Shown here: positions 35,584-47,314 of the stretch, in pieces
How the letters are laid out: each line of letters opens with the position of its first letter
Position numbering within the stretch: position 1 is the first letter of the stretch
Assembly: GCF_019977735.1 (NCBI RefSeq)
Contig: NZ_AP025018.1
Location: 5,336,580-5,400,579, forward strand
Origin: Calothrix sp. PCC 7716
GTDB lineage: Bacteria; Cyanobacteriota; Cyanobacteriia; Cyanobacteriales; Nostocaceae
DNA: 64,000 bases
Direction of reading: 5' to 3'
Made by a program: the position numbers and the translations under genes
The notes under the pieces: generated by a model
Told to the model about the DNA's origin: nothing
What the model saw: the letters and a program-made list of their open reading frames with translations, nothing else
The model's database searches: none

Positions 35584-36033
35584 ATGTCTATTAAAGCATT
35601 TAGCGGAAAGTTCGCCTTTCTTAGCAATTTTTGGTCTTGCAAAATAATATTTGAAGGCATTGAATTTCCAAGCGTTGAACATGCTTTTCAAGCCGCCAAA
35701 ACAACCAAACCGTCGGAGCGTGAACTGGTACGTTTAGCTGCAACACCAGTCAAAGCCAAGCGCATTGGGCGCCAGGTGACACTTCGAGATGATTGGGATA
35801 AGGTGAAGATTGAAATTATGCACGGTTTTTTGTTACAGAAATTTAGCCAGGATGAGATGCTGCGAGAGATGCTTTTGAGTACAGATGATACAGAATTAAT
35901 TGAAGGCAACACTTGGGGTGATAAATTTTGGGGCGCAGTGCTAGAAAATGGCAAATGGGTAGGTCGCAATGAACTGGGTAAGCTATTGATGAGTGTGCGT
36001 TCTGAAATTCGCGCAGAAGTTACTGATGAGTAA
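35584..36033 (+). CDS. NADAR-family protein (YbiA-like N-glycosidase)
   Basis: 149 residues. NADAR landmarks: SGKFAFLSNFWSCKIIFEGI near 6-25, FPSVEHAFQAAKT near 27-39 with the conserved E-H-x-x-Q, LRDDWDKVKIEIM near 73-85, LLQKFSQDEMLREMLLST, LIEGNTWGDKFWG near 101-113 and GRNELGKLLM near 122-131. The family cleaves riboflavin intermediates or ADP-ribosyl-type N-glycosidic bonds; some members reverse ADP-ribosylation or sit in NAD-linked conflict systems. AAGGGA lies upstream of the start. No partner gene is obvious. Confidence 0.88.
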   Translation: MSIKAFSGKFAFLSNFWSCKIIFEGIEFPSVEHAFQAAKTTKPSERELVRLAATPVKAKRIGRQVTLRDDWDKVKIEIMHGFLLQKFSQDEMLREMLLSTDDTELIEGNTWGDKFWGAVLENGKWVGRNELGKLLMSVRSEIRAEVTDE

Positions 36034-36134: not shown

Positions 36135-37877
36135 ATGTATCATAAATCATTTATTTCTTGGCATGGCATTGAAACTCAGAGCTTATTTGTGATTTTTTTA
36201 TTCTTATTTTCTTTTCCTACAATTGCTCAAACAGTTCCAGTTCAAACATTGCAAGATAAACCCAATCCAAATATCGACCGTTTCCCCCAACCTGTTCCCA
36301 GTCCTACACCTCTTCCGGAGAATGAGGCGCCAACTATATTGCCTCCACAGGTAAAACCGGCACCAGAGGAAACAGATACAAATAGTAGTATCATTGTACG
36401 TAAGATAGAGGTAACAGGTAATACTGTATTCAACCCATATATTATTGAAAGCATCGTCAACAAGAGCGAAAATCGTTCTGTAAGTTTAAAAGAACTTAGA
36501 GGAGTTGCTGATGCAATTACCAAGTTATATTTACAAAAGGGCTACATTACATCGAGGGCTGTGTTAGTAGACCAGGAAATAAAAGATGGTGTAGTTCAAA
36601 TTCGGGTTATTGAGGGTTCTTTAGAAAAAATTGAGATAGAAGGTAATCGACGTTTAAACTCATCTTATATACGCGAGCGCATTCAGTTAGGTACAAAAAT
36701 ACCACTCAACCAACTTCAAATTGAAAACCAACTCAGGTTGCTAAGAGTTGACCCAATGTTAAGTAATATTGAGGCGACTTTACGACCGGGTACTAATTTA
36801 GGTGAAAGTATTCTTACAGTTAAAGTAGAGGAGGCGCCTAATTTTAATACATTTTTTGGTGTTGATAACTATTCATCTCCGAGTGTTGGCTCGGAAAGGT
36901 TTGGTGGGGGTTTTAATTATCGTAATGTTACAGGAATTGGCGACCAATTTAGTGCTTCATACTATCGTTCTACCACAGGTGGGTTCAATGTATTTGACTT
37001 GAATTACCAAGTTCCGATTAATCCTAAAAATGGAACTATCAGGTTAAGGTATGCACCGAGTGATAGTAAAATTACTGCTTCTGAATTTGCTGATTTTAAT
37101 ATTACCTCTGATAGTCAACTATATGAAGTTAGTTTTCGCCAACCATTAACCCGCACCCCCAGCGAAGAATTTGCTTTATCTTTAGCATTTACCTTGCAAA
37201 ATGGTCAAACTTTTTTAGGAGGTACACCTACACCCTTTGGTGAGGGGCCTGATAGCCAAGGTAACAGTCGTACTAGAATAATCAAATTTGGACAAGATTA
37301 TATTAAACGAGACTTGCAAGGAGCATGGGCTTTGCAATCACAATTTAATCTTGGTTTAGGTATTTTCGATGCGACGATTAATTCTGGCTCAAAGCCAGAT
37401 GGACGTTTCTTTAGTTGGTTAGGGCAAGTACAGAGGGTACAAAGGTTAAGTAAAAATAATTTATTAATAGCTCAAGCTGAGTTACAACTCACGACAGATA
37501 GTTTACTTAGCAACCAACAATTTTATCTAGGTGGGGGACAATCTCTACGGGGTTATCGACAAAATGCTCGTTCTGGAGACAATGGTTTTCGTGTTTCTGT
37601 AGAAGACCGAATTACCATTTTTGATGGTACAGATGGAACTTCATCTTTACAATTGGCGCCTTTTATTGAGATGGGTGCAGTTTGGAACCATCCTGATAAT
37701 CCGAATAAACTCAACAATCAAACTTTTCTCAGCGCTGCTGGTTTGGGATTAATCTTACAACCCACACCAAATACTTTTATCCGACTCGATTATGCTGTTC
37801 CCTTTATAAAACTTGACGATAAAGGTACAAACGCTCAAGATGAAGGCTTCTTTTTCAGCGTTGGTTATAATCCTTAA
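36135..37877 (+). CDS. Two-partner secretion outer-membrane transporter (TpsB, ShlB/FhaC/HecB family)
   Basis: 580 residues. A signal peptide near 15-32 (SLFVIFLFLFSFPTIAQT), a Pro-rich linker, a POTRA domain near 80-160 (IIVRKIEVTGNTVFNPYIIE ... VQIRVIEGSLEKIEIEGNRRL), a second POTRA-like part, then a 16-strand-type barrel ending with FFFSVGYNP, an outer-membrane C-terminal signature with aromatic residues. The FHA-like exoprotein gene lies 2.7 kb away on the opposite strand and is its likely cargo. The gene is convergent with the TPR-CHAT gene, with 5 bases between stops. Confidence 0.9.
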   Translation: MYHKSFISWHGIETQSLFVIFLFLFSFPTIAQTVPVQTLQDKPNPNIDRFPQPVPSPTPLPENEAPTILPPQVKPAPEETDTNSSIIVRKIEVTGNTVFNPYIIESIVNKSENRSVSLKELRGVADAITKLYLQKGYITSRAVLVDQEIKDGVVQIRVIEGSLEKIEIEGNRRLNSSYIRERIQLGTKIPLNQLQIENQLRLLRVDPMLSNIEATLRPGTNLGESILTVKVEEAPNFNTFFGVDNYSSPSVGSERFGGGFNYRNVTGIGDQFSASYYRSTTGGFNVFDLNYQVPINPKNGTIRLRYAPSDSKITASEFADFNITSDSQLYEVSFRQPLTRTPSEEFALSLAFTLQNGQTFLGGTPTPFGEGPDSQGNSRTRIIKFGQDYIKRDLQGAWALQSQFNLGLGIFDATINSGSKPDGRFFSWLGQVQRVQRLSKNNLLIAQAELQLTTDSLLSNQQFYLGGGQSLRGYRQNARSGDNGFRVSVEDRITIFDGTDGTSSLQLAPFIEMGAVWNHPDNPNKLNNQTFLSAAGLGLILQPTPNTFIRLDYAVPFIKLDDKGTNAQDEGFFFSVGYNP

Positions 37878-37882
37878 TGTTA

Positions 37883-40531
37883 TTAATTTGCCTCACCTAC
37901 TAAGGTAAACCCAGCCCAATCTAATGGCTCAAAATCAAACTTCATCAGTTGCAGCATAGCTTTTCTTAATGCTACAGCTTTATCAGGGTTTTGCTGTAAT
38001 TCCTGATAAAAAGCAATCATTAATAGTCTTGTTTTCTCATCAGGAACAGTCCATAAAGATACTAATATACTGGGTGTTCCTGCGGAGATAAAAGCGCGCG
38101 AAAGTCCAATTACTCCATCTCCGGTAATTCTTCCTACACCCGTATCGCAAGCACTCAAAACCACTAACGAAGCGACCAAACGCAAATCAAAAATTTCTGC
38201 CGCAGTCAGTAAACCATCATCTTGATCTGAAGGAGCTAAAGCAATCGCTCCCGGTATTCCTAAGCCCTGTAATGATGAGCTAGTATTAGAACTGCGATAC
38301 TCTAAAAGTCCGTGGGTTGCTAAATGTATAAGCTTTGCTTGAGATAATTGCTTTTTTATAGCTGTTTTAGTTGCTTTAGAACCAATCATTGCTTCTTGCT
38401 GGAACATTTTTGCTATTTCTATTGCTTCTGCTTCCGATTCTGGTAATACAGCTAGCTGTTGAGGTTTTTCCCCATTTATAGATACTGTAGGCATAGTTGG
38501 ATTGCCCACTATTAAAGGTTTTAAATTAGTTAGATTTTGCTTTGCTAAACTATTTTTTTGCTTACGAGTTAAATCTAATACTTGAATCGCTGGAGCGGTA
38601 AGAATCGTATGTTTTTCAATTAAATATTTACCTTCAGCATCTTGCAGTGCAGCGAAGGGAGTTAAAAATAATGATTCTTGAGGTATAAAAATTACACGCT
38701 CATTTTCATCTTTTGGTAACAAATCTGAAATTGGTTCAATCAGAAATTTGTGCAGTTTACGGAGTCCAATATAACTTGAATTTTTTTCTTCTCCTAACTT
38801 CAAAATATTTTGCCTCTGCTGCTCACATACAATACCTTGAACCAAACAGCGACTGGCGGTAACTAAATCATCAAGGGTTAAATTATGCTTCCATAATGGT
38901 TTTAAATCAACTTTGCGAAATGAAATTTTACCCGTTGGTTTTACTACCCAAATAAATAATTCTGAACCTCTCCCGCGTTGTTTCCCCAAAAACTTAAAGT
39001 CATCATCAGGGACAATTGAATATTCAACTAAGGTTGCATTTTGCTGACGAGCAATTTCTTTAATTTGGTTTACAGAAGGAAAATTGGTATTGATTGAGTT
39101 TTTATCTTCCGAGAATCTACCAGCAAGTAATTCCACAAAAGCACGCGCGCGTCCTCGTTCTGTAGCTTCTAAAGCTGCTTCTGGTTTATTTGCAGCTACT
39201 AAAATTTGTTGCAATAAATTGTAGGAATGAACTTGAGTATCAAAAATTGATACCTTGTAAGTATCGCTAAGTCCCGGTCTCATTCCATCTAAAACTTCGA
39301 CAGCATCACGAAGCGTCTTTTCTGCTTCCTCAAGTTTTCCCGCAGTATATAAAACATGTCCTAGATTATTTAACCCCATCGCTTGAGCTTCCGGGTCTCC
39401 AATTTCCCTGGCAATAGCTAAACTATTTTTCAAATACTCAATAGCTTGGGGATAGTCTTTTAAATCTTCGTGTGCTAATCCCAAACTTCCTAAAGCTTCC
39501 AATTCCCGTTGCTTGTTCTTTATCTGTCGCGCGAGTTGAAGACTCTGTTGATAATTGTTAATTGCTTTGTCTAATTTTCCCAAAAAATGGTATGTAGAAC
39601 CCAAATTAATCAATGTACTTGTTTGACCCGTAATATCATTTATAGAAGAGCTAATTTTGAAACTGGTTTGAAAAGTCGCAATCGCTTTTTCGTACTGACC
39701 TTGATTAGCATAAATTTGACCTAGATTACTAAGAGTTTTACCCTCTTCTCCTTTATTATTAACCTCACGAGCAATTTGCAAACTTTTTTCATAGGATACA
39801 ATTGCACTATCATAGTCCCCTAAAGCTTCATACACATTTCCTAAGTTTTTAAAAACTATTCCCTCATTCTTACGATTTCCTAGCACCCTAAGAATGTCTA
39901 ACGATTGTTTATTTGCTTCAATAGCTTGAATATAATTACCCAATGTTTTGTAAGCAATGGCTAAATTAGCCAGAATAGCTCCTTCATCTATTTTATTACC
40001 AGTTTCACGCACCAAAATTAAAGCTTGTTGATTATATTGAACAGCTTTGATAAATTTAGTTTGTTTAGCGTAGATTTTTGCAAGATTTATTAGAATTGCT
40101 GTTTCTGCTGATTTATCTTTCAGTTCTCGCGTTAGAGTCAGGTATTGTTGTAAATAAGTAATTGTTTGGGGATAATTTTGTATTTGCTGGTTTACGACAA
40201 TTAAGTTTTTTAAAGTGCTTGCAGTTGCTTGCTTGTCATCTAACTCAAGATATATTTTTAAAGTCTGTTGCCATAATTTTATAGCTTCTGGTAATTGATT
40301 TGCTTGATACTTTTTTAAAGCTTCTTCAGATAATTTTTCTGCTTTGATGTGATGCGATTGAGAGTCTCCTTTACTTACTAGAAAAGTTATTTGGGAATGT
40401 TCAGAAATAAAAACACTACTGAAGTTTGTGATTATAGCATCCTTAATTGATTTGTAAAAAACATTATGTTGATGTAACGAACCGCAAAGGACGCAAAGGA
40501 CGCAAAGGTAAGAAAAGAAAAGAAGAAACAT
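37883..40531 (-). CDS. TPR-CHAT protein (caspase-like protease domain)
   Basis: 882 residues from ATG 40531. About ten tetratricopeptide repeats cover residues 65-430 (LINLAKIYAKQTKFIKAVQYNQQAL-type units). A CHAT domain fills the last ~330 residues with the His of HLATHG near 740 and the Cys of LSACDTG near 795, the caspase-type dyad, both intact. It ends with LDWAGFTLVGEAN, the usual CHAT end. Residues 2-19 (FLLFFSYLCVLCVLCGSL) are hydrophobic and encoded by a dispersed CGCAAAGGA repeat, so the annotated N-terminus may be wrong or repeat-derived. Known: CHAT proteases are activated by partners and cut target proteins. It is last in a four-gene minus-strand cluster with TpsA, DUF928 and CHAT-CHASE2 genes. 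Confidence 0.88.
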   Translation of the reverse strand: MFLLFFSYLCVLCVLCGSLHQHNVFYKSIKDAIITNFSSVFISEHSQITFLVSKGDSQSHHIKAEKLSEEALKKYQANQLPEAIKLWQQTLKIYLELDDKQATASTLKNLIVVNQQIQNYPQTITYLQQYLTLTRELKDKSAETAILINLAKIYAKQTKFIKAVQYNQQALILVRETGNKIDEGAILANLAIAYKTLGNYIQAIEANKQSLDILRVLGNRKNEGIVFKNLGNVYEALGDYDSAIVSYEKSLQIAREVNNKGEEGKTLSNLGQIYANQGQYEKAIATFQTSFKISSSINDITGQTSTLINLGSTYHFLGKLDKAINNYQQSLQLARQIKNKQRELEALGSLGLAHEDLKDYPQAIEYLKNSLAIAREIGDPEAQAMGLNNLGHVLYTAGKLEEAEKTLRDAVEVLDGMRPGLSDTYKVSIFDTQVHSYNLLQQILVAANKPEAALEATERGRARAFVELLAGRFSEDKNSINTNFPSVNQIKEIARQQNATLVEYSIVPDDDFKFLGKQRGRGSELFIWVVKPTGKISFRKVDLKPLWKHNLTLDDLVTASRCLVQGIVCEQQRQNILKLGEEKNSSYIGLRKLHKFLIEPISDLLPKDENERVIFIPQESLFLTPFAALQDAEGKYLIEKHTILTAPAIQVLDLTRKQKNSLAKQNLTNLKPLIVGNPTMPTVSINGEKPQQLAVLPESEAEAIEIAKMFQQEAMIGSKATKTAIKKQLSQAKLIHLATHGLLEYRSSNTSSSLQGLGIPGAIALAPSDQDDGLLTAAEIFDLRLVASLVVLSACDTGVGRITGDGVIGLSRAFISAGTPSILVSLWTVPDEKTRLLMIAFYQELQQNPDKAVALRKAMLQLMKFDFEPLDWAGFTLVGEAN
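40483..40509. repeat. Three tandem CGCAAAGGA units
   Basis: Three 9-base units (40483-40491, 40492-40500, 40501-40509, the last with one change). This is a familiar cyanobacterial dispersed repeat. On the minus strand it encodes the CVLCVLCG part of the predicted TPR-CHAT N-terminus. Confidence 0.75.
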
Positions 40532-40600
40532 TTTAGAAATGATTTGGGGTTGCTATATAAAAGTAGTGTTACCACTTTACTCTAAATAATCATTGCTTCT

Positions 40601-43198
40601 TTAAGGCACTACTTTCAGGATATTATTTTTATCATTTGTTGTCTTACATGGGTCATTTTTTCGTGGTTGGGAGTTATTCGTTGCATTTCCCCCACGAGTA
40701 TTTTCTCCACGGTTGAAAGCTATGGTTGAATTTTGTGGAGAACAAACATCATTTTTTTCGTCTTGATTTAATTGACGTTGGACAATTTGTCCGTCGGGAG
40801 AATTTTGATTATTTGATGTTCCATTGCCAGAAGAAACATCGGTTTTAGGTTTGGGAACAGTTACTACATTAATATCGGAACTTCCCTCTAAAAATGTATC
40901 ACCAAAAGCGCCGTATAGACTAGCATCAACTCCCCCCTTTTTAACAATCAACCCAGCTGTAAAACTTTCATCTGGTGAAATATTGTTAGCATCAAAAGCA
41001 ACACTGTTAACAGTTACAGGTCTATCTGGGACAGGGTTCCCATTTTCGTCAACAAAAATAATTTGACCAATATCGTCTTTACCTTTAAAGAAAACTCTTC
41101 GTCCATCAGCTTTGACTCGGTATATAGTATTTCCATTCGCATCTTTTTCAACACCAACCCCTTCAGTGAATTTTATTCCACCATGTTGAATATTTATATT
41201 CCCTTGGGCTTGAATACTAACTGGAACTTCACTAGGCCCAGTAAAAGTAAATGAACTTAAGAAAGTATCTTTTGCTTGAAATGTATCGGCAGCATTAATA
41301 CCTATACTGCCGAAAGGAACGCGAATAGTATTAACTGTAATTTTTCCAGTTTCTGAAGATAGAAATGCAAAATCATTTATCCTACCAAATCCATCTGATG
41401 ATATTACTCTTAAATTTTCTATATTAATATTTTTGGCGCCAGAAAGTGTAGTATTACCAGCATTTATATCACCTCTAACTAAGATACCACCTTCTGAAGA
41501 ATTCAAAATCAGCGGACTATTTATACCGTTGAAAGAACCATCCAATATAAAATTTCCTAAAGAAAGATTTCCATTTACATTAATATCATTTTTGGCAGAG
41601 AGAATCACGGGACCCAAAATCTCACTGCTCGCTGGTTCAATAGTAATATTTCCGACTGTAATATTTCCTGCTGATATAGAAGTATTCGTACTAGAAAAAG
41701 TTGTTGTATCAATAGAAGTTGGAGAAATAGTTGCTGGATTGCGTAATTCGCTCAACCCTGCTCGCAAAATCAACGATGAGCTATTTTTTAATGTGGCAAT
41801 ATCTGGGTCTGTTCCTACTAAAGAAGCATTTGGTTGTGTAATTTCAATATCACCACCTATAATACTGCCTTTAGCTTCTACTTTTAGAGAAGAACCTTTA
41901 TAATTACCAAAACTTACATCACCATTAGAGCTTATTATCCCTTGAGAATTAGTTCCAACTGGGCTGAGAAAAGTAGAACTGAAATTACCTGCCCCACCAG
42001 ATAAATTCTGCACAGAAAAATTTTTACCTGTAATAAAACGAGCATTACCACTAATTGTACCATCGCTGACTAAATCAAGATTACCGCCTGCCTGAAAGAT
42101 GGATTTCTCATTAGCTAACTGAATATTAATATTTTGATTTCCTTGAACTTTTAAGTTTGCTCCCGTTTGCAAAATAAAGAATTCGTCAAACCCCGCACCA
42201 TCAAATAAATTTATAGTATCTTTAGCTAATAAGTTCAAATTTCTAGATGTTGTTAACCCCTGTCCCGATTGACCAACAGAAATTAAATTACGACTCGATG
42301 ATAGTGTGGCATTTCCAGCATCAAGACTATCTACTACTAAATCGCCATTTTCTATTTTTAAACCTGAACCAGTCAGTTTTACTGTATCTCCACTGATTGT
42401 TAAACCCGTTGCATTTGTAACTCCTCCACCCGTTAATAATGCGGGGAGAGATAAAATAGGTAACGACCAATTATTCGGTAAACTAGGTGCTGTGGAGACT
42501 GGTTGAGTTTCGAGACTCAAAATATTTCCTGGCTGTGTAATTTTAACTATACTTTCTCCAGATACAGTCGCAACCGTTACCTGCCCTCCGGGAGCGCTGA
42601 GTCCCCTTGTATTAACAACAGTACCACCAAGAAGAGTTAAATTTTGTCCCGGTTTTATAGCTAAATTACCAAACCCATCAATGGCGATAGCTCCCGGTTG
42701 ACTCATGGTAAATGCAAATGAACTGGGTTCTCCAATCAAATCAGCGTAATTATTTACACCAAAACCATTAAACCACTTATTCCCAAACCCAATTCCGTTC
42801 GCGGTTGTTGCAGTAAAAGACCCAGGAACATCTAACCTGGCGCCAGAACCAAATATAATCCCTGCTGGGTTCATTAAATATAAGTTAGCATTGCTACCCG
42901 TAACTTTAATTAACCCATTAATTACCGAAGCATCTCCACCAGTAACTCTTCCTAAAATATTCTTAGTACCAGGATTCGTCACAAAGTCTGCAATTTGATT
43001 TTCATTTAATCCAAACTTTTGCAGACTGTGAAATACATTCTTATCAATTTGAGTGCCACCTGTAATAGTAAAAGTATTTCCACTTTGATTAACAACAGTA
43101 TTCGCATCACCAGGCGCCGTTGTAATCTGTGCTTGTGCTTTTGGTAATAATATAGATGTGACAATGAAGAAACTAAGTAAATGAAATATTAATTTCAT
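40601..43198 (-). CDS. Two-partner secretion exoprotein (TpsA, filamentous-hemagglutinin type)
   Basis: 865 residues. Sec signal peptide at 1-23 (LIFHLLSFFIVTSILLPKAQAQ). The TPS domain follows at about 24-280, with VNQSGNTFTITGGTQIDKNVFHSL-type start and the diagnostic NPAGIIFGSGARLDVPGSF near 110-128 (NPxGI motif). The remainder is a repetitive beta-helix rich in Asn, Gly, Ser and Ile. The C-terminus is polar, with Asn-rich stretches (GTSNNQNSPDGQ). It is probably secreted through the TpsB at 36135-37877 and displayed on or released from the cell. No enzymatic or toxin domain was found at the C-terminus. Confidence 0.9.
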   Translation of the reverse strand: MKLIFHLLSFFIVTSILLPKAQAQITTAPGDANTVVNQSGNTFTITGGTQIDKNVFHSLQKFGLNENQIADFVTNPGTKNILGRVTGGDASVINGLIKVTGSNANLYLMNPAGIIFGSGARLDVPGSFTATTANGIGFGNKWFNGFGVNNYADLIGEPSSFAFTMSQPGAIAIDGFGNLAIKPGQNLTLLGGTVVNTRGLSAPGGQVTVATVSGESIVKITQPGNILSLETQPVSTAPSLPNNWSLPILSLPALLTGGGVTNATGLTISGDTVKLTGSGLKIENGDLVVDSLDAGNATLSSSRNLISVGQSGQGLTTSRNLNLLAKDTINLFDGAGFDEFFILQTGANLKVQGNQNINIQLANEKSIFQAGGNLDLVSDGTISGNARFITGKNFSVQNLSGGAGNFSSTFLSPVGTNSQGIISSNGDVSFGNYKGSSLKVEAKGSIIGGDIEITQPNASLVGTDPDIATLKNSSSLILRAGLSELRNPATISPTSIDTTTFSSTNTSISAGNITVGNITIEPASSEILGPVILSAKNDINVNGNLSLGNFILDGSFNGINSPLILNSSEGGILVRGDINAGNTTLSGAKNINIENLRVISSDGFGRINDFAFLSSETGKITVNTIRVPFGSIGINAADTFQAKDTFLSSFTFTGPSEVPVSIQAQGNINIQHGGIKFTEGVGVEKDANGNTIYRVKADGRRVFFKGKDDIGQIIFVDENGNPVPDRPVTVNSVAFDANNISPDESFTAGLIVKKGGVDASLYGAFGDTFLEGSSDINVVTVPKPKTDVSSGNGTSNNQNSPDGQIVQRQLNQDEKNDVCSPQNSTIAFNRGENTRGGNATNNSQPRKNDPCKTTNDKNNILKVVP

Positions 43199-43299
43199 GG
43201 CACTGATATTTAAAAAATTGCTTGAGCATTAAAAACGGGGTTCCTTGGTACATATACGTAGTTGACACTAAAATTATGCAATAATTTTACAAAACTTCA

Positions 43300-44091
43300 C
43301 TATTCAACCAACGGTTGCTTGGCAATATCGCTCAAGCCAATACTTTCGAGTAAACTCACCCAAGTCTCAACCAGCTCTTTATTTTCTGGTTCCTGTTGTC
43401 GTAATCTTGCCAATGTATTAAAAGCATCAAACCAAATACCCTCTGTGGCATATAATTCAACTTGTTTGCGAGGTTCAGCGGCATTAATTTTTTGGTTTAA
43501 TCCACTCAATGTAACTCGTCGCACAACACCTTCTACCCGGAGTGAAGGAATTGGTTTTTGCGGTTCGCAGTAGATATTAAAGAACCAGCGATAATTTTTA
43601 TTTGCTTCTAATGGTTTGACTGTTTCAGGAAGAGAAACGGAGATAATACCTGGTTTACTTGGCAATTTAACCGCTGATTGATAAATTATTTTCTTGGACT
43701 CCTCATCTTGGAGAAGAAATTCTGTTGGAAAAGAATACTTGTTGGTGAAGGGAACGTAAAAAGGGAACTGAGGACGCAAGCTAGTGGTTAATCCCCAAAC
43801 ATTTTCCTTTACGTGTTCCGTTTGCCCCAATTTTACAGTTTTTTGTGTAAAAGGCACTAAAGCAGTTAAGTTTGTTTCGACATCTGGGCAAGGGCCTCTG
43901 CGTCCACCACCACGAGAACGTCCACCAACTGCTCTTCCTGGTGGTGGTGCTGGTAAGGTAAATTTAATTTTTTGGTTTTGTTTATTTGAGTAAGCAGGTT
44001 CTATGTGTAAAAACCCGTTATAGGGAATAAAAATTATAGAACTAAGAATCAATATTAAACTAGCTTTTACTGGCAGCCAAACAAAATTCAT
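43300..44091 (-). CDS. DUF928 protein
   Basis: 263 residues from ATG 44091, chosen because GAGGA lies 8 bases upstream (an in-frame GTG at 44106 overlaps that site). An N-terminal membrane segment or signal (WLPVKASLILILSSIIFIP), then the DUF928 opening FTLPAPPPGRAVGGRSRGGG, LTALVPFTQKTVKLGQTE, NPQ/TS region and YRWFFNIYC. It is probably exported to the periplasm. DUF928 proteins recur in cyanobacteria beside CHAT, CHASE2 and TPS genes; the function is unknown. The gene is 101 bases before tpsA on the same strand. Confidence 0.82.
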   Translation of the reverse strand: MNFVWLPVKASLILILSSIIFIPYNGFLHIEPAYSNKQNQKIKFTLPAPPPGRAVGGRSRGGGRRGPCPDVETNLTALVPFTQKTVKLGQTEHVKENVWGLTTSLRPQFPFYVPFTNKYSFPTEFLLQDEESKKIIYQSAVKLPSKPGIISVSLPETVKPLEANKNYRWFFNIYCEPQKPIPSLRVEGVVRRVTLSGLNQKINAAEPRKQVELYATEGIWFDAFNTLARLRQQEPENKELVETWVSLLESIGLSDIAKQPLVE

Positions 44092-44127
44092 CGATTTAGT
44101 CCTCACAAATTAATTATTACTCTTACT

Positions 44128-44156
44128 CCCCCCTTAATAAGGGGGGTTGGGGGGGA
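44128..44156. repeat. CCCCCCTTAATAAGGGGGG dispersed repeat
   Basis: A C6-TTAATAA-G6 palindrome followed by TTGGGGGGGA, between the CHAT-CHASE2 and DUF928 genes. Related copies lie at 61588-61618 and 61678-61710. It is a common cyanobacterial intergenic repeat and could form a strong hairpin in the operon mRNA. Confidence 0.7.
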
Positions 44157-44202
44157 TTTAATTATTTGCAGCTTCATATTAAATTGATATAAAAATAAAA
44201 AC

Positions 44203-46560
44203 TCATAATTTACCTTTAAGAATGACGAAAATACTTACACTTGTTGTTCCCACTAAAGCTATCGCAGATGGTACAAATGCTATCCAAGTGCCTTGAATTA
44301 ACATATAAAAACAAACTCCATAGAGAATTCCGCAACTCAGCAACAAAGCTAAAGATATTTTAGGAAGCAGGTGCTTGCCTAATAGTGGATTGTAGCAATA
44401 TACACCTGCTAACCCTCCAACGATAGACCAGCACAAAATCCAAGCTGTATCACTCCACGGTGATAATACTCCTATTAGTGGACGTTTGTCTAATACACTA
44501 CTCAGTATTTGACTAACCATATGAGCTTGTACCTCAACCCCTGGCATTTGGTTTTGTAAAAGTCTTCCATAGGGGGTTTGCCACCTATCTTCGGCGCCAC
44601 TTTTAGTTATACCAATTAATACAATTTTATTTTCAATAAATTTTTTGAGGGCAGTAGGATTATCCTCAGCAGCAGCAAACAGTTGTCTTAATGTTAATTT
44701 TTGAGCAACATCATTACCCGCGCGATAGTTCAACATGATTTGTTCGCTGTTGGCATCAATACTTTGATAACCACCACCATGTGATTGCAACCTCTGAAAA
44801 ACGACATTACCAATCTGCCAGTTTTTACCATCAGCAGTCAAATTAGTTTGAATATTATGAACTTGCAATAGATAGCGAGAAGCTAGTTGTAAACTCAAAG
44901 CATAAGATGCCTGACAATGAGAATTTGCCTCTGGGTTCATCGACAATAACTGGCGCCGCAATACATTATCGGTGTCGTCTACAAAGTCACTAAATCCTAA
45001 GCGCTCTACAGGAATTTCTTGAGGAGGACGCACACCATAAGGGTCAAATTTTGTACTGCTAACTTTACAAATACCTACCAAATTATCAGTATTTTTTAAA
45101 TTTGCAATCAGATTCTGATGTTGGGGATTGGTATTAAAATCGCGGTAAATATCTAAACCAATTACACTCGGCTTGTATTGCTGTAAAATTCCTAATAAGC
45201 GTTCTAAGGATTTATCGGAAAGGGAAACTCCCTTCAGTTCTTCTCCTTTTTGTCGTTGGGCTTCAACATCACTATCATCTATTGTTACAATTAATAGACG
45301 CTCGTCAATTCCTTCGCTGGGTCGCAATTTCATCATCTGGTCGAATGCTGGCAACTCTAGTGCTTGCAATAATCCAAACCAACGCATTCCACTCACCAAG
45401 CTAGTTACTAATAAACTAGATATAACTAAATTTATCAATCCTCGCTTTGTAAATACATTATTGTTACCCACTGCATTTGGAATTGCAATCATATTTTGCC
45501 AAGTTAAAGGCACTTCTGCTTGATGTTGATATATTGTTGGCAACCAACTTGCACAGGGAAATTTACTTTCTAATCCTTGCAAACGTTCCCTTGCTTCTCG
45601 TAAAGCTTTATAAAGAGGTTCGCCAATCACAAATGCTTTCAAAAAATATTTTAAGAACTCTTGAGCAACTTTATCTGGGACAATTTCCCGCATCACAATC
45701 AAATAAGGTATTTGCAAATCAATAAGCTCTTTTGCTAATCCTAAACCATCGCAGGAATTAAAAATTGCTAATTGTAAACCATTATCTACAGCTTTTTTGA
45801 GAGCATATTTTAACTGGCTAATTGTTAAACTGTCATTTTGGTTAATATATATTTGCCCCGTTTCACCGTTGGCTTGACTAGAACTATGTCCTGCAAAAAA
45901 AAGTATTTGCCAGCTTTCTTCCCACAGCTGCTCTGTCAACTCACTGCGAGGTGGTTCCACCATAAAATTGATATTCGCATTTGGTAATTCCGTTAATAAT
46001 TTTCGATCTGCTTCAATATCAATTCCCGTACTGTTGCCCAAAATGGCAAGAATTTTGACAGCACTTGTAGGTTTTACTTCTCGAATTATCCGGTCATAAT
46101 TAACAGGACTTAATGCTACTTCTACCTTGGAATAACGCTCCAGCATATCCCATAAATGCCAAGGTAATTTTTGCAATTGGTTGTCTTGAGTTTGAATCAA
46201 TACCTGCAAATCATCATTTGGCAGTAACTTTTCTAACCATTTTTCGCGGATAGGTAGAAAAGAAGGTGATTTTAGCCAATCGTTAAGTTGCTGATTGACG
46301 ATTTTTGCTGCCGTCAAACATTCTTCATCTGCTGAACGTTTAGTTCTTCCGGTGGAAATACTAACAGGTCTTCCCACCCAATCCAGATTACGGTATATGC
46401 CTTGCCAACGCTGATAACTTTGTGGTAGAACTTCATTGCTAGGAAGCTCACCCATAATTTCCGTTGAAGGTGGAGTATTTTCCTCTCCAATTTGAAAAGT
46501 AACAGGGAAACCCTCTTTAAAGCTACCCTTTCCAAACTTTAAAACAACCAATTTACCCAC
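44203..46560 (-). CDS. CHAT-CHASE2 membrane protein
   Basis: 785 residues with a GTG start at 46560 (AAGGGA about 9 bases upstream). The N-terminal CHAT domain, at about 50-355, has His ~225 in FFAGHSS and Cys ~270 in IFNSCDG, an intact caspase-type dyad. A transmembrane helix follows near 375-395 (LINLVISSLLVTSLVSGM). The CHASE2 sensor, at about 400-690, has PAFDQMMKLRPSEGIDERLL and VIGLDIYRDF. Three helices end the protein. CHASE2 is an extracytoplasmic sensor usually fused to kinases or cyclases; here the output would be the cytoplasmic protease-like domain. It is first of four co-directional genes. Confidence 0.88.
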   Translation of the reverse strand: MGKLVVLKFGKGSFKEGFPVTFQIGEENTPPSTEIMGELPSNEVLPQSYQRWQGIYRNLDWVGRPVSISTGRTKRSADEECLTAAKIVNQQLNDWLKSPSFLPIREKWLEKLLPNDDLQVLIQTQDNQLQKLPWHLWDMLERYSKVEVALSPVNYDRIIREVKPTSAVKILAILGNSTGIDIEADRKLLTELPNANINFMVEPPRSELTEQLWEESWQILFFAGHSSSQANGETGQIYINQNDSLTISQLKYALKKAVDNGLQLAIFNSCDGLGLAKELIDLQIPYLIVMREIVPDKVAQEFLKYFLKAFVIGEPLYKALREARERLQGLESKFPCASWLPTIYQHQAEVPLTWQNMIAIPNAVGNNNVFTKRGLINLVISSLLVTSLVSGMRWFGLLQALELPAFDQMMKLRPSEGIDERLLIVTIDDSDVEAQRQKGEELKGVSLSDKSLERLLGILQQYKPSVIGLDIYRDFNTNPQHQNLIANLKNTDNLVGICKVSSTKFDPYGVRPPQEIPVERLGFSDFVDDTDNVLRRQLLSMNPEANSHCQASYALSLQLASRYLLQVHNIQTNLTADGKNWQIGNVVFQRLQSHGGGYQSIDANSEQIMLNYRAGNDVAQKLTLRQLFAAAEDNPTALKKFIENKIVLIGITKSGAEDRWQTPYGRLLQNQMPGVEVQAHMVSQILSSVLDKRPLIGVLSPWSDTAWILCWSIVGGLAGVYCYNPLLGKHLLPKISLALLLSCGILYGVCFYMLIQGTWIAFVPSAIALVGTTSVSIFVILKGKL

Positions 46561-46834: not shown

Positions 46835-47314
46835 ATGATTCGTAAAATCAATACCTTTACTCGTCATTTGAGTGCCGTTGCTATAAGCATTGTTACAATA
46901 GGCATCTTCTCAGGCGCCGCTCTGGCAGAGACAAATGTTGTGGTTCGGATGACTACAGGGTCTGACGATCTGCGGGGTGGTAACAATGCATACATGACTC
47001 TTAACTTAGAAAGTGGAGCAAGCACTTCTGAAGTAAGGCTCGGTGGTGGCTTTGGTCAAAACAGTGCTGTTCGACGAACAGCTACTTTTAGAGAAACGGT
47101 TTCATTAGATCAAATCAGGAGTATCACTATTCGCCACGATGGTTCTCCTCGCTCAGGCCATCCCTTCGATGGGTACGACAATTGGGACTTGCAAAGGATT
47201 TCCGTCTCCTTAAATGGTAGAAATATTTACAACTCCGTCAACGATCCAGGTAGAAGTCGTTTTGTGCATCGATTTACAGGAAATGCTCGCCAAATTGTCT
47301 TGCCCCGTCAATGA
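46835..47314 (+). CDS. Secreted protein with PLAT-like beta-sandwich
   Basis: 159 residues. The Sec signal peptide ends near residue 31 (IVTIGIFSGAALAE). The mature part reads VRMTTGSDDLRGGNNAYMTL, TVSLDQIRSITIRHDGSPRS and GYDNWDLQRISVSLNGRNIY. This is the pattern of PLAT/LH2-like lipid- or protein-binding beta-sandwich domains seen in secreted bacterial proteins. No catalytic residues. Single gene; probably extracellular or periplasmic. Confidence 0.7.
   Translation: MIRKINTFTRHLSAVAISIVTIGIFSGAALAETNVVVRMTTGSDDLRGGNNAYMTLNLESGASTSEVRLGGGFGQNSAVRRTATFRETVSLDQIRSITIRHDGSPRSGHPFDGYDNWDLQRISVSLNGRNIYNSVNDPGRSRFVHRFTGNARQIVLPRQ

Follow-up and report, generated by a model that had tools for sequence, protein, structure and literature searches.

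What joins five neighbouring genes that encode a secreted exoprotein and its transporter, a DUF928 protein and two caspase-like CHAT proteins is the question raised by a locus at positions 36135–46560 of a 64,000-nucleotide stretch of Calothrix sp. PCC 7716 DNA (the window). The explanation that, taken as a whole, we regard as somewhat probable is an envelope-signalling module with DUF928 and a CHASE2 receptor as its core, a CHAT domain as the output of that receptor, and the exoprotein TpsA and a second CHAT protein carrying TPR repeats (TPR-CHAT) as its cargo.

Neighbourhoods of DUF928 genes

The 12.4-Mb genome gave 79 CHAT, 50 two-partner secretion (TPS) domain, 30 CHASE2, 20 DUF928 and 10 POTRA_2 matches, and the neighbours within 10 kb of each DUF928 gene were compared with 1000 random placements. 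This shuffle test used 38 of the 79 CHAT matches (at least 100 bits, less one fragment), 29 of the 30 CHASE2 matches (the second piece of a broken gene was excluded), 49 of the 50 TPS matches (one below the cut-off was excluded) and all 10 POTRA_2 matches. CHASE2 was found near 19 of the 20 DUF928 genes (shuffled mean 0.97, maximum 5), a strong CHAT match near 16 (shuffled mean 1.24, maximum 5) and TPS near 13 (shuffled mean 1.38, maximum 7), and the five-gene neighbourhood is far from chance. TpsB, represented by its POTRA domain, was near only two of the 20 (shuffled mean 0.29, maximum 3) and is a weak associate that seldom adjoins DUF928. The five-family association put forward in the earlier note thus stands for DUF928, CHASE2, CHAT and TPS, whereas the linkage of TpsB is near background. 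Away from the DUF928 neighbourhoods, 3 of 31 TPS genes lay near a strong CHAT match, compared with 1.8 expected at random, indicating that the TPS–CHAT link in this genome belongs to the DUF928 module.

Among 117 genomes drawn from the phylum, DUF928 was present in 37, all of which also carried CHASE2, a family found in 107 of the 117. Sixty DUF928 regions, with about 10 kb on each side, were hand-picked from the matches listed so as to spread over 33 of the 36 other genomes that carry DUF928, and 20 control regions were placed at round positions, chosen arbitrarily, in 11 of these 33; the local hidden Markov models were retrained once on the regions they scored. CHASE2 was detected in 38 of the 60 regions, TPR-CHAT in 21, TPS in 19, TpsB in 14 and DUF1822 in 11, and none of these five was detected in the 20 control regions, which contained three TPR-only matches and one receiver-like match. 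TPR-CHAT and TPS were both present in 25 of the 80 DUF928 regions, and DUF928–CHASE2 adjacency was also found in the 3.5- and 3.8-Mb genomes of L135 and L143. Together with 79 named loci described below, these regions and the Calothrix genome itself bear out the co-occurrence of the families in cyanobacteria to which the earlier note had pointed.

The DUF928–CHASE2 core and its exchangeable outputs

Pairs were counted in 78 of the 80 regions (L089 and L114 were excluded, their DUF928 open reading frame (ORF) having been missed by the ORF picker), and 23 of the 78 were without CHASE2. In 46 of the 55 DUF928–CHASE2 pairs, the two genes lay on the same strand within 700 nt. The receptors of all 55 pairs ended in CHAT (21), cyclase (13), histidine kinase (7), HATPase only (5), GGDEF (3) or AAA_35 (3) outputs, with three unassigned; for the 46 adjacent pairs the corresponding numbers were 20, 12, 7, 5, 1 and 0, with one unassigned. 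Examples of the output types were checked against Pfam. TPR-CHAT and TPS accompanied several output types besides the CHAT type, for example, the histidine-kinase-type loci, where TPR-CHAT was present in 7/7 and TPS in 4/7. What stays constant is the pair of DUF928 and CHASE2, and CHAT is one among several outputs; its exchange for kinases and cyclases on one receptor is a natural experiment that suggests a role of CHAT as signal output. Moreover, DUF928 distances tracked CHASE2-domain distances, both over 44 pairs (r 0.66, p 0.0005) and over 14 pairs of one genome (r 0.57, p 0.0005), the larger correlations being inflated by shared ancestry.

Anatomy of the window locus

The ORF check of the window and the Pfam matches, all well above the cut-offs, agree with the five families and places named in the earlier note. 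Four co-directional genes, as it had described, occupy the minus strand: the CHAT-CHASE2 receptor gene (44203–46560), DUF928 (43300–44106), tpsA (40601–43198) and TPR-CHAT (37883–40531), separated by gaps of 96, 101 and 69 bases, respectively. The plus-strand tpsB (36135–37877) had been described as meeting them head-on; the distance of 5 bases between the stop codons of tpsB and TPR-CHAT (37878–37882) is correct, but the two genes are convergent, tail to tail. Calothrix sp. HK-06, the nearest named relative among the matches listed, has the same five genes, with a 96% identical CHAT-CHASE2.

The receptor consists of an N-terminal, predicted-cytoplasmic CHAT domain (Pfam 3e-12), a transmembrane-like segment (residues 374–392), CHASE2 (386–717; PF05226, E 1.4e-63) and C-terminal transmembrane-like segments. 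Its H225/C270 dyad is intact and invariant across 21 aligned proteins. The DUF928 protein (Pfam 1e-58) is predicted to be exported and to combine an Ig-like with a helical, TPR-like part; an alternative start is the ATG at 44091 (MNFVW...). TpsA is a filamentous-haemagglutinin-like exoprotein with a TPS domain (PF05860, E 6.7e-41 in Pfam; adhes_NPXG, 2.6e-21 in NCBIfam), and its N-terminus, MKLIFHLLSFFIVTSILLPKAQA, judged by eye, resembles a signal peptide of the kind that belongs to two-partner secretion (type Vb). The linked TpsB that such secretion involves lies 5 bases from the end of the operon; it is a ShlB/FhaC-type outer-membrane transporter with POTRA and barrel matches in Pfam (POTRA_2, PF08479, 1e-21; ShlB, PF03865, 5e-28). 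TPR-CHAT (CHAT, 3e-69 in Pfam) carries a caspase/separase-like dyad, H740/C795, which is intact, as previously claimed, and invariant across 30 aligned proteins, and the window protein is 20–25% identical to 29 TPR-CHATs from other DUF928 loci.

A home-made rule was used to predict export signals; DUF1822, CHAT-CHASE2 and sigma-like proteins served as negatives. Signal-like N-termini were predicted for 30/36 TPR-CHAT, 72/85 DUF928 and 27/34 TPS proteins, and for 0/19 DUF1822, 1/23 CHAT-CHASE2 and 1/14 sigma-like proteins. Because such starts are common in TPR-CHAT and rare in CHAT-CHASE2, the two CHAT proteins usually appear to serve opposite sides of the membrane.

DUF1822 and sigma-like genes beside CHAT-CHASE2

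For CHAT-CHASE2, 79 named loci were kept from the best 80 of at least 553 matches, a selection that leans towards close relatives of the window protein. They contained DUF928 in 71, DUF1822 in 69, a sigma-like gene in 48, TPR-CHAT in 35, TPS in 28 and TpsB in 3 loci; for the 52 loci of at least 20 kb, the counts were 48, 45, 35, 23, 24 and 3, respectively. In 59 of the 79 loci, the same strand carried DUF1822 upstream of CHAT-CHASE2 (median gap 143 nt); in 34, a sigma-like gene in turn lay upstream of DUF1822 (median gap 19.5 nt). One of the four-gene operons is that of Nostoc foliaceum FACHB-393 (L229). In the longer sigma-like family, Sigma70_r4 was matched at E 0.01 or better by 11 of the 11 members scanned; the shorter family had one PDB profile match, to SigK (E 0.016). 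The order sigma, DUF1822, CHAT-CHASE2, DUF928 in these relatives suggests, by analogy with Csx29, Csx30 and CASP-sigma, that CHAT frees sigma from DUF1822. A DUF1822 model (L217 8884–9897) has an N-terminal region of alpha/beta type, stretches of low confidence and, at its C-terminus, a region rich in strands with Ig-like matches; TPRs were not seen. No Csx30 entry was among the matches listed for DUF1822, though the two may be related.

CHAT, CHASE2 and TpsB in another phylum

Two of 12 Sphingobium plasmid records and the one Niveispirillum record were examined. The Sphingobium plasmids carry, in succession, a CHAT gene (Pfam 3e-50), a CHASE2-cyclase gene, a gene for a small protein whose start looks signal-like, one for a ShlB-type TpsB and one for a protein about 2100 residues long, which had no Pfam match and has a TPS-like N-terminus (both N-termini judged by eye). 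On the Niveispirillum plasmid, a record without annotation, genes in a row encode a protein that is long and repetitive, a CHAT protein whose start looks lipoprotein-like (by eye) and CHASE2. The strong co-occurrence in cyanobacteria and the Sphingobium grouping make a pathway that senses the envelope and is linked to a surface exoprotein, as the earlier note had envisaged, a good reading. Its further proposal, that both CHAT proteins jointly act on TpsA, is not suggested by the anatomy, since in most relatives the two are predicted to reside in different compartments.

Proposed mechanism

The window locus would be one of about 20 copies of an envelope-signalling module in the Calothrix genome. 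In this module, exported DUF928 would serve as a co-sensor in the periplasm, docking on the extracytoplasmic CHASE2 domain of a receptor whose cytoplasmic end is interchangeable and, in the window version, is the caspase-like CHAT. Once the receptor switches, CHAT would cut a target in the cytoplasm. The best candidate for this target in most relatives is DUF1822, which is proposed to hold the sigma factor back as an anti-sigma substrate; for the window receptor, DUF1822 would need to be supplied in trans, and the nearest of the 22 DUF1822 match rows in the genome is about 220 kb from the locus. The regulated cargo would be the secreted exoprotein TpsA, exported via a possibly shared TpsB. The second, usually exported TPR-CHAT might act in the periplasm on the exoprotein or the sensor, perhaps by trimming TpsA or by generating the sensed signal.

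If this is correct, DUF928 gains its first testable role, as does CHASE2 if both form one receptor, and cyanobacterial caspase-like proteases might contribute to ordinary envelope signalling and target exported proteins, beyond cell death and phage defence. More tentatively, and with rather less confidence than in the module itself, we suggest that CHASE2 receptors generally pair with a dedicated periplasmic subunit (DUF928 in cyanobacteria, MtxA- or FecR-type proteins in proteobacteria), to which cyanobacteria may add a caspase-like, sigma-releasing cascade that governs adhesins together with a second exported caspase-like protease, giving about 20 parallel, insulated surface-sensing channels in one genome.

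Comparison with known systems

EACC2-caspase proteins have variable C-termini, including CHASE2, and many are encoded with extracytoplasmic function (ECF) sigma and DUF1822 genes; Kaur et al. (2021, PMC8195603) class them among apoptosis and immunity systems. As in these systems, the window receptor fuses a caspase-superfamily domain to a C-terminus of this variable kind, here CHASE2 (the PF05226 match above). In the 21 aligned CHAT-CHASE2 proteins, a conserved stretch precedes CHAT, and Pfam and NCBIfam showed no EACC2 model. Unlike many EACC2-caspase neighbourhoods, the window locus has neither an ECF sigma nor a DUF1822 gene, and its link with TPS and exported TPR-CHAT is absent from the excerpted account of Kaur et al. 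(PMC8195603). The main text of that paper contains neither the word DUF928 nor the word hemagglutinin.

MtxA of Magnetospirillum is an exported Ig-like plus TPR protein encoded beside a CHASE2-cyclase gene (PMC4439547). The DUF928 model is predicted to have this two-domain fold, and MtxA is its best fold match after re-alignment only. The MtxA system differs in an extra N-terminal region and a cyclase output, and the excerpts of PMC4439547 mention no CHAT or TPS. Similarly, the BiofilmReg operon of Burkholderia contaminans encodes a periplasmic partner, a CHASE2 receptor and a response regulator, and a strain with an interrupted regulator gene produced no biofilm (PMC5192318). This operon resembles the window module in joining a periplasmic partner to a CHASE2 receptor, but the partner is LysM-FecR instead of DUF928, the output is a histidine kinase, and CHAT is absent from the operon as excerpted; the signals sensed by CHASE2 are termed unknown there (PMC5192318). 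Craspase, composed of Cas7-11, Csx29 (a TPR-CHAT protein), Csx30 and CASP-sigma, provides the analogy for a CHAT protease that cuts an inhibitor holding a sigma factor, as proposed for the window module; Craspase, however, is RNA-guided and cytoplasmic, whereas the trigger proposed here is a membrane receptor (PMC10028731).

HetF, involved in heterocysts and cell division, is, like CHAT-CHASE2, a cyanobacterial CHAT protein. Against the HetF equivalog NF045509 of NCBIfam, CHAT-CHASE2 scored 34.2 bits, compared with a curated cut-off of 1200. HetF is not known to have a CHASE2–DUF928 arrangement.

One Nostoc cluster with CHASE2 and DUF928 was noted in a 2017 WD40 study (PMC5587647). In a literature search that covered titles and the openings of abstracts, and in which most subscription journals lay outside the search, neither the DUF928–CHASE2 pairing as a rule nor the MtxA likeness or the TPS/TPR-CHAT link was found described. 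The EACC2-caspase, CHASE2, sigma and DUF1822 context is already known; within the scope of that search, these three points appear to be new.

Contrary evidence and rival explanations

Several observations weigh against the proposed module. CHASE2 was missing within about 10 kb in 22 of the 60 DUF928 regions outside the Calothrix genome, including all seven regions from three small genomes (G014, G085 and G089). The correlation between DUF928 and CHASE2 distances was non-significant for the eight CHAT-type pairs of the Calothrix genome (r 0.14, p 0.28), apart from the ancestry effect already mentioned. No DUF1822 or sigma gene was found in the 20-kb region around the window DUF928 (L084) or at the orthologous HK-06 locus (L181), and Pfam matches in the shorter sigma-like family were weak (Sigma70_r2 in 1/14, E 0.0013; Sigma70_r4_2 in 1/14). 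MtxA was missing from the 50 Foldseek matches listed for the DUF928 model, none of which reached E 0.001, and an MtxA entry was likewise missing from the matches listed in PDB profile searches with DUF928 (E limits of 1 and 10), so the DUF928–MtxA link is one of fold only; moreover, no phenotype was visible on deletion of mtxA under the conditions of that study (PMC4439547). Finally, the window TPR-CHAT (L084) fails the export-signal rule. Its N-terminus is anomalous: the ORF starts within a CAAAGGACG-type repeat (40466–40531), which reads as a hydrophobic leader, and the stretch of the window that matches the signal-like N-terminus of the HK-06 orthologue contains an in-frame stop; in HK-06, a different insert follows that N-terminus. 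Judging from sequence, the window protein may have lost its export signal, and its export is uncertain.

Both CHAT proteins might instead belong to a single pathway with direct action on TpsA at the surface, by processing or by control. In favour of this are the joint presence of TPR-CHAT and TPS in 25 of the 80 regions, the signal-like starts of 30 of the 36 TPR-CHATs, and CHATs with signal- or lipoprotein-like starts (by eye) near long exoprotein-like genes on the Sphingobium and Niveispirillum plasmids. We nevertheless consider such a pathway unlikely: the CHAT of CHAT-CHASE2 is predicted to be cytoplasmic and should not meet exported TpsA, and kinases and cyclases replace it where TPR-CHAT and TPS stay, as in the histidine-kinase-type loci (7/7 and 4/7). 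Somewhat less probable still is a conflict or programmed-death system, in which CHAT-CHASE2 would be a caspase-type immune sensor, and TPS and TPR-CHAT would be effectors of defence or competition, multiplied as other variable immunity genes are. The placing of EACC2-caspase, ECF sigma and DUF1822 among apoptosis and immunity systems (PMC8195603, in excerpt), the high copy number (20 DUF928 matches) and the presence of some copies on plasmids of other cyanobacteria are consistent with it, but TPR-CHAT alone of the five proteins matched PADLOC (TPR models; three others, E 0.004–0.008), the TpsA matches were limited to TPS-domain models in Pfam and NCBIfam, and ordinary two-component and cyclase signalling is among the outputs.

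It is very doubtful that the clustering reflects co-duplication or hitch-hiking of families expanding in large cyanobacterial genomes, without a joint function. The abundance of CHAT, TPS and CHASE2 (79, 50 and 30 matches), the near-background linkage of TpsB and the seven CHASE2-less regions of the small genomes would fit this explanation; the adjacency in the 3.5- and 3.8-Mb genomes, the shuffled means of about 1 in 20, the exchange of outputs while DUF928 and CHASE2 stay together, and the grouping of CHAT, CHASE2 and TpsB in another phylum argue against it.

Flanking genes and further copies

Adjoining tpsB, positions 35584–36033 of the window encode a NADAR-family protein (TIGR02464, 98.9 bits, cut-off 73.7). 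On the other side of the locus, a 159-residue protein with a signal-like N-terminus (by eye) and without a Pfam match is encoded at 46835–47314, divergent from CHAT-CHASE2, on the side where relatives have DUF1822 and sigma.

Outside the window, a second cluster of CHASE2, DUF928 and TPR-CHAT (L096 6800–13216), which belongs to the HATPase type and includes a receiver-like protein, lies at about 5416200–5422615 of the same contig (G000:C1), its DUF928 about 39 kb from that of the window. Farther away, at about 9467700–9471900 of G000:C1 (L098 10538–14680), the CHASE2 gene that stands beside one DUF928 copy is split in two and has several stops. Two other genomes (L125, L146) have DUF928 genes in runs of three, and versions of the module are found on plasmids from Gloeothece citriformis PCC 7424 (typed conjugative; L264 1–7971) and Picosynechococcus sp. 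PCC 7003 (L265 435–9129).

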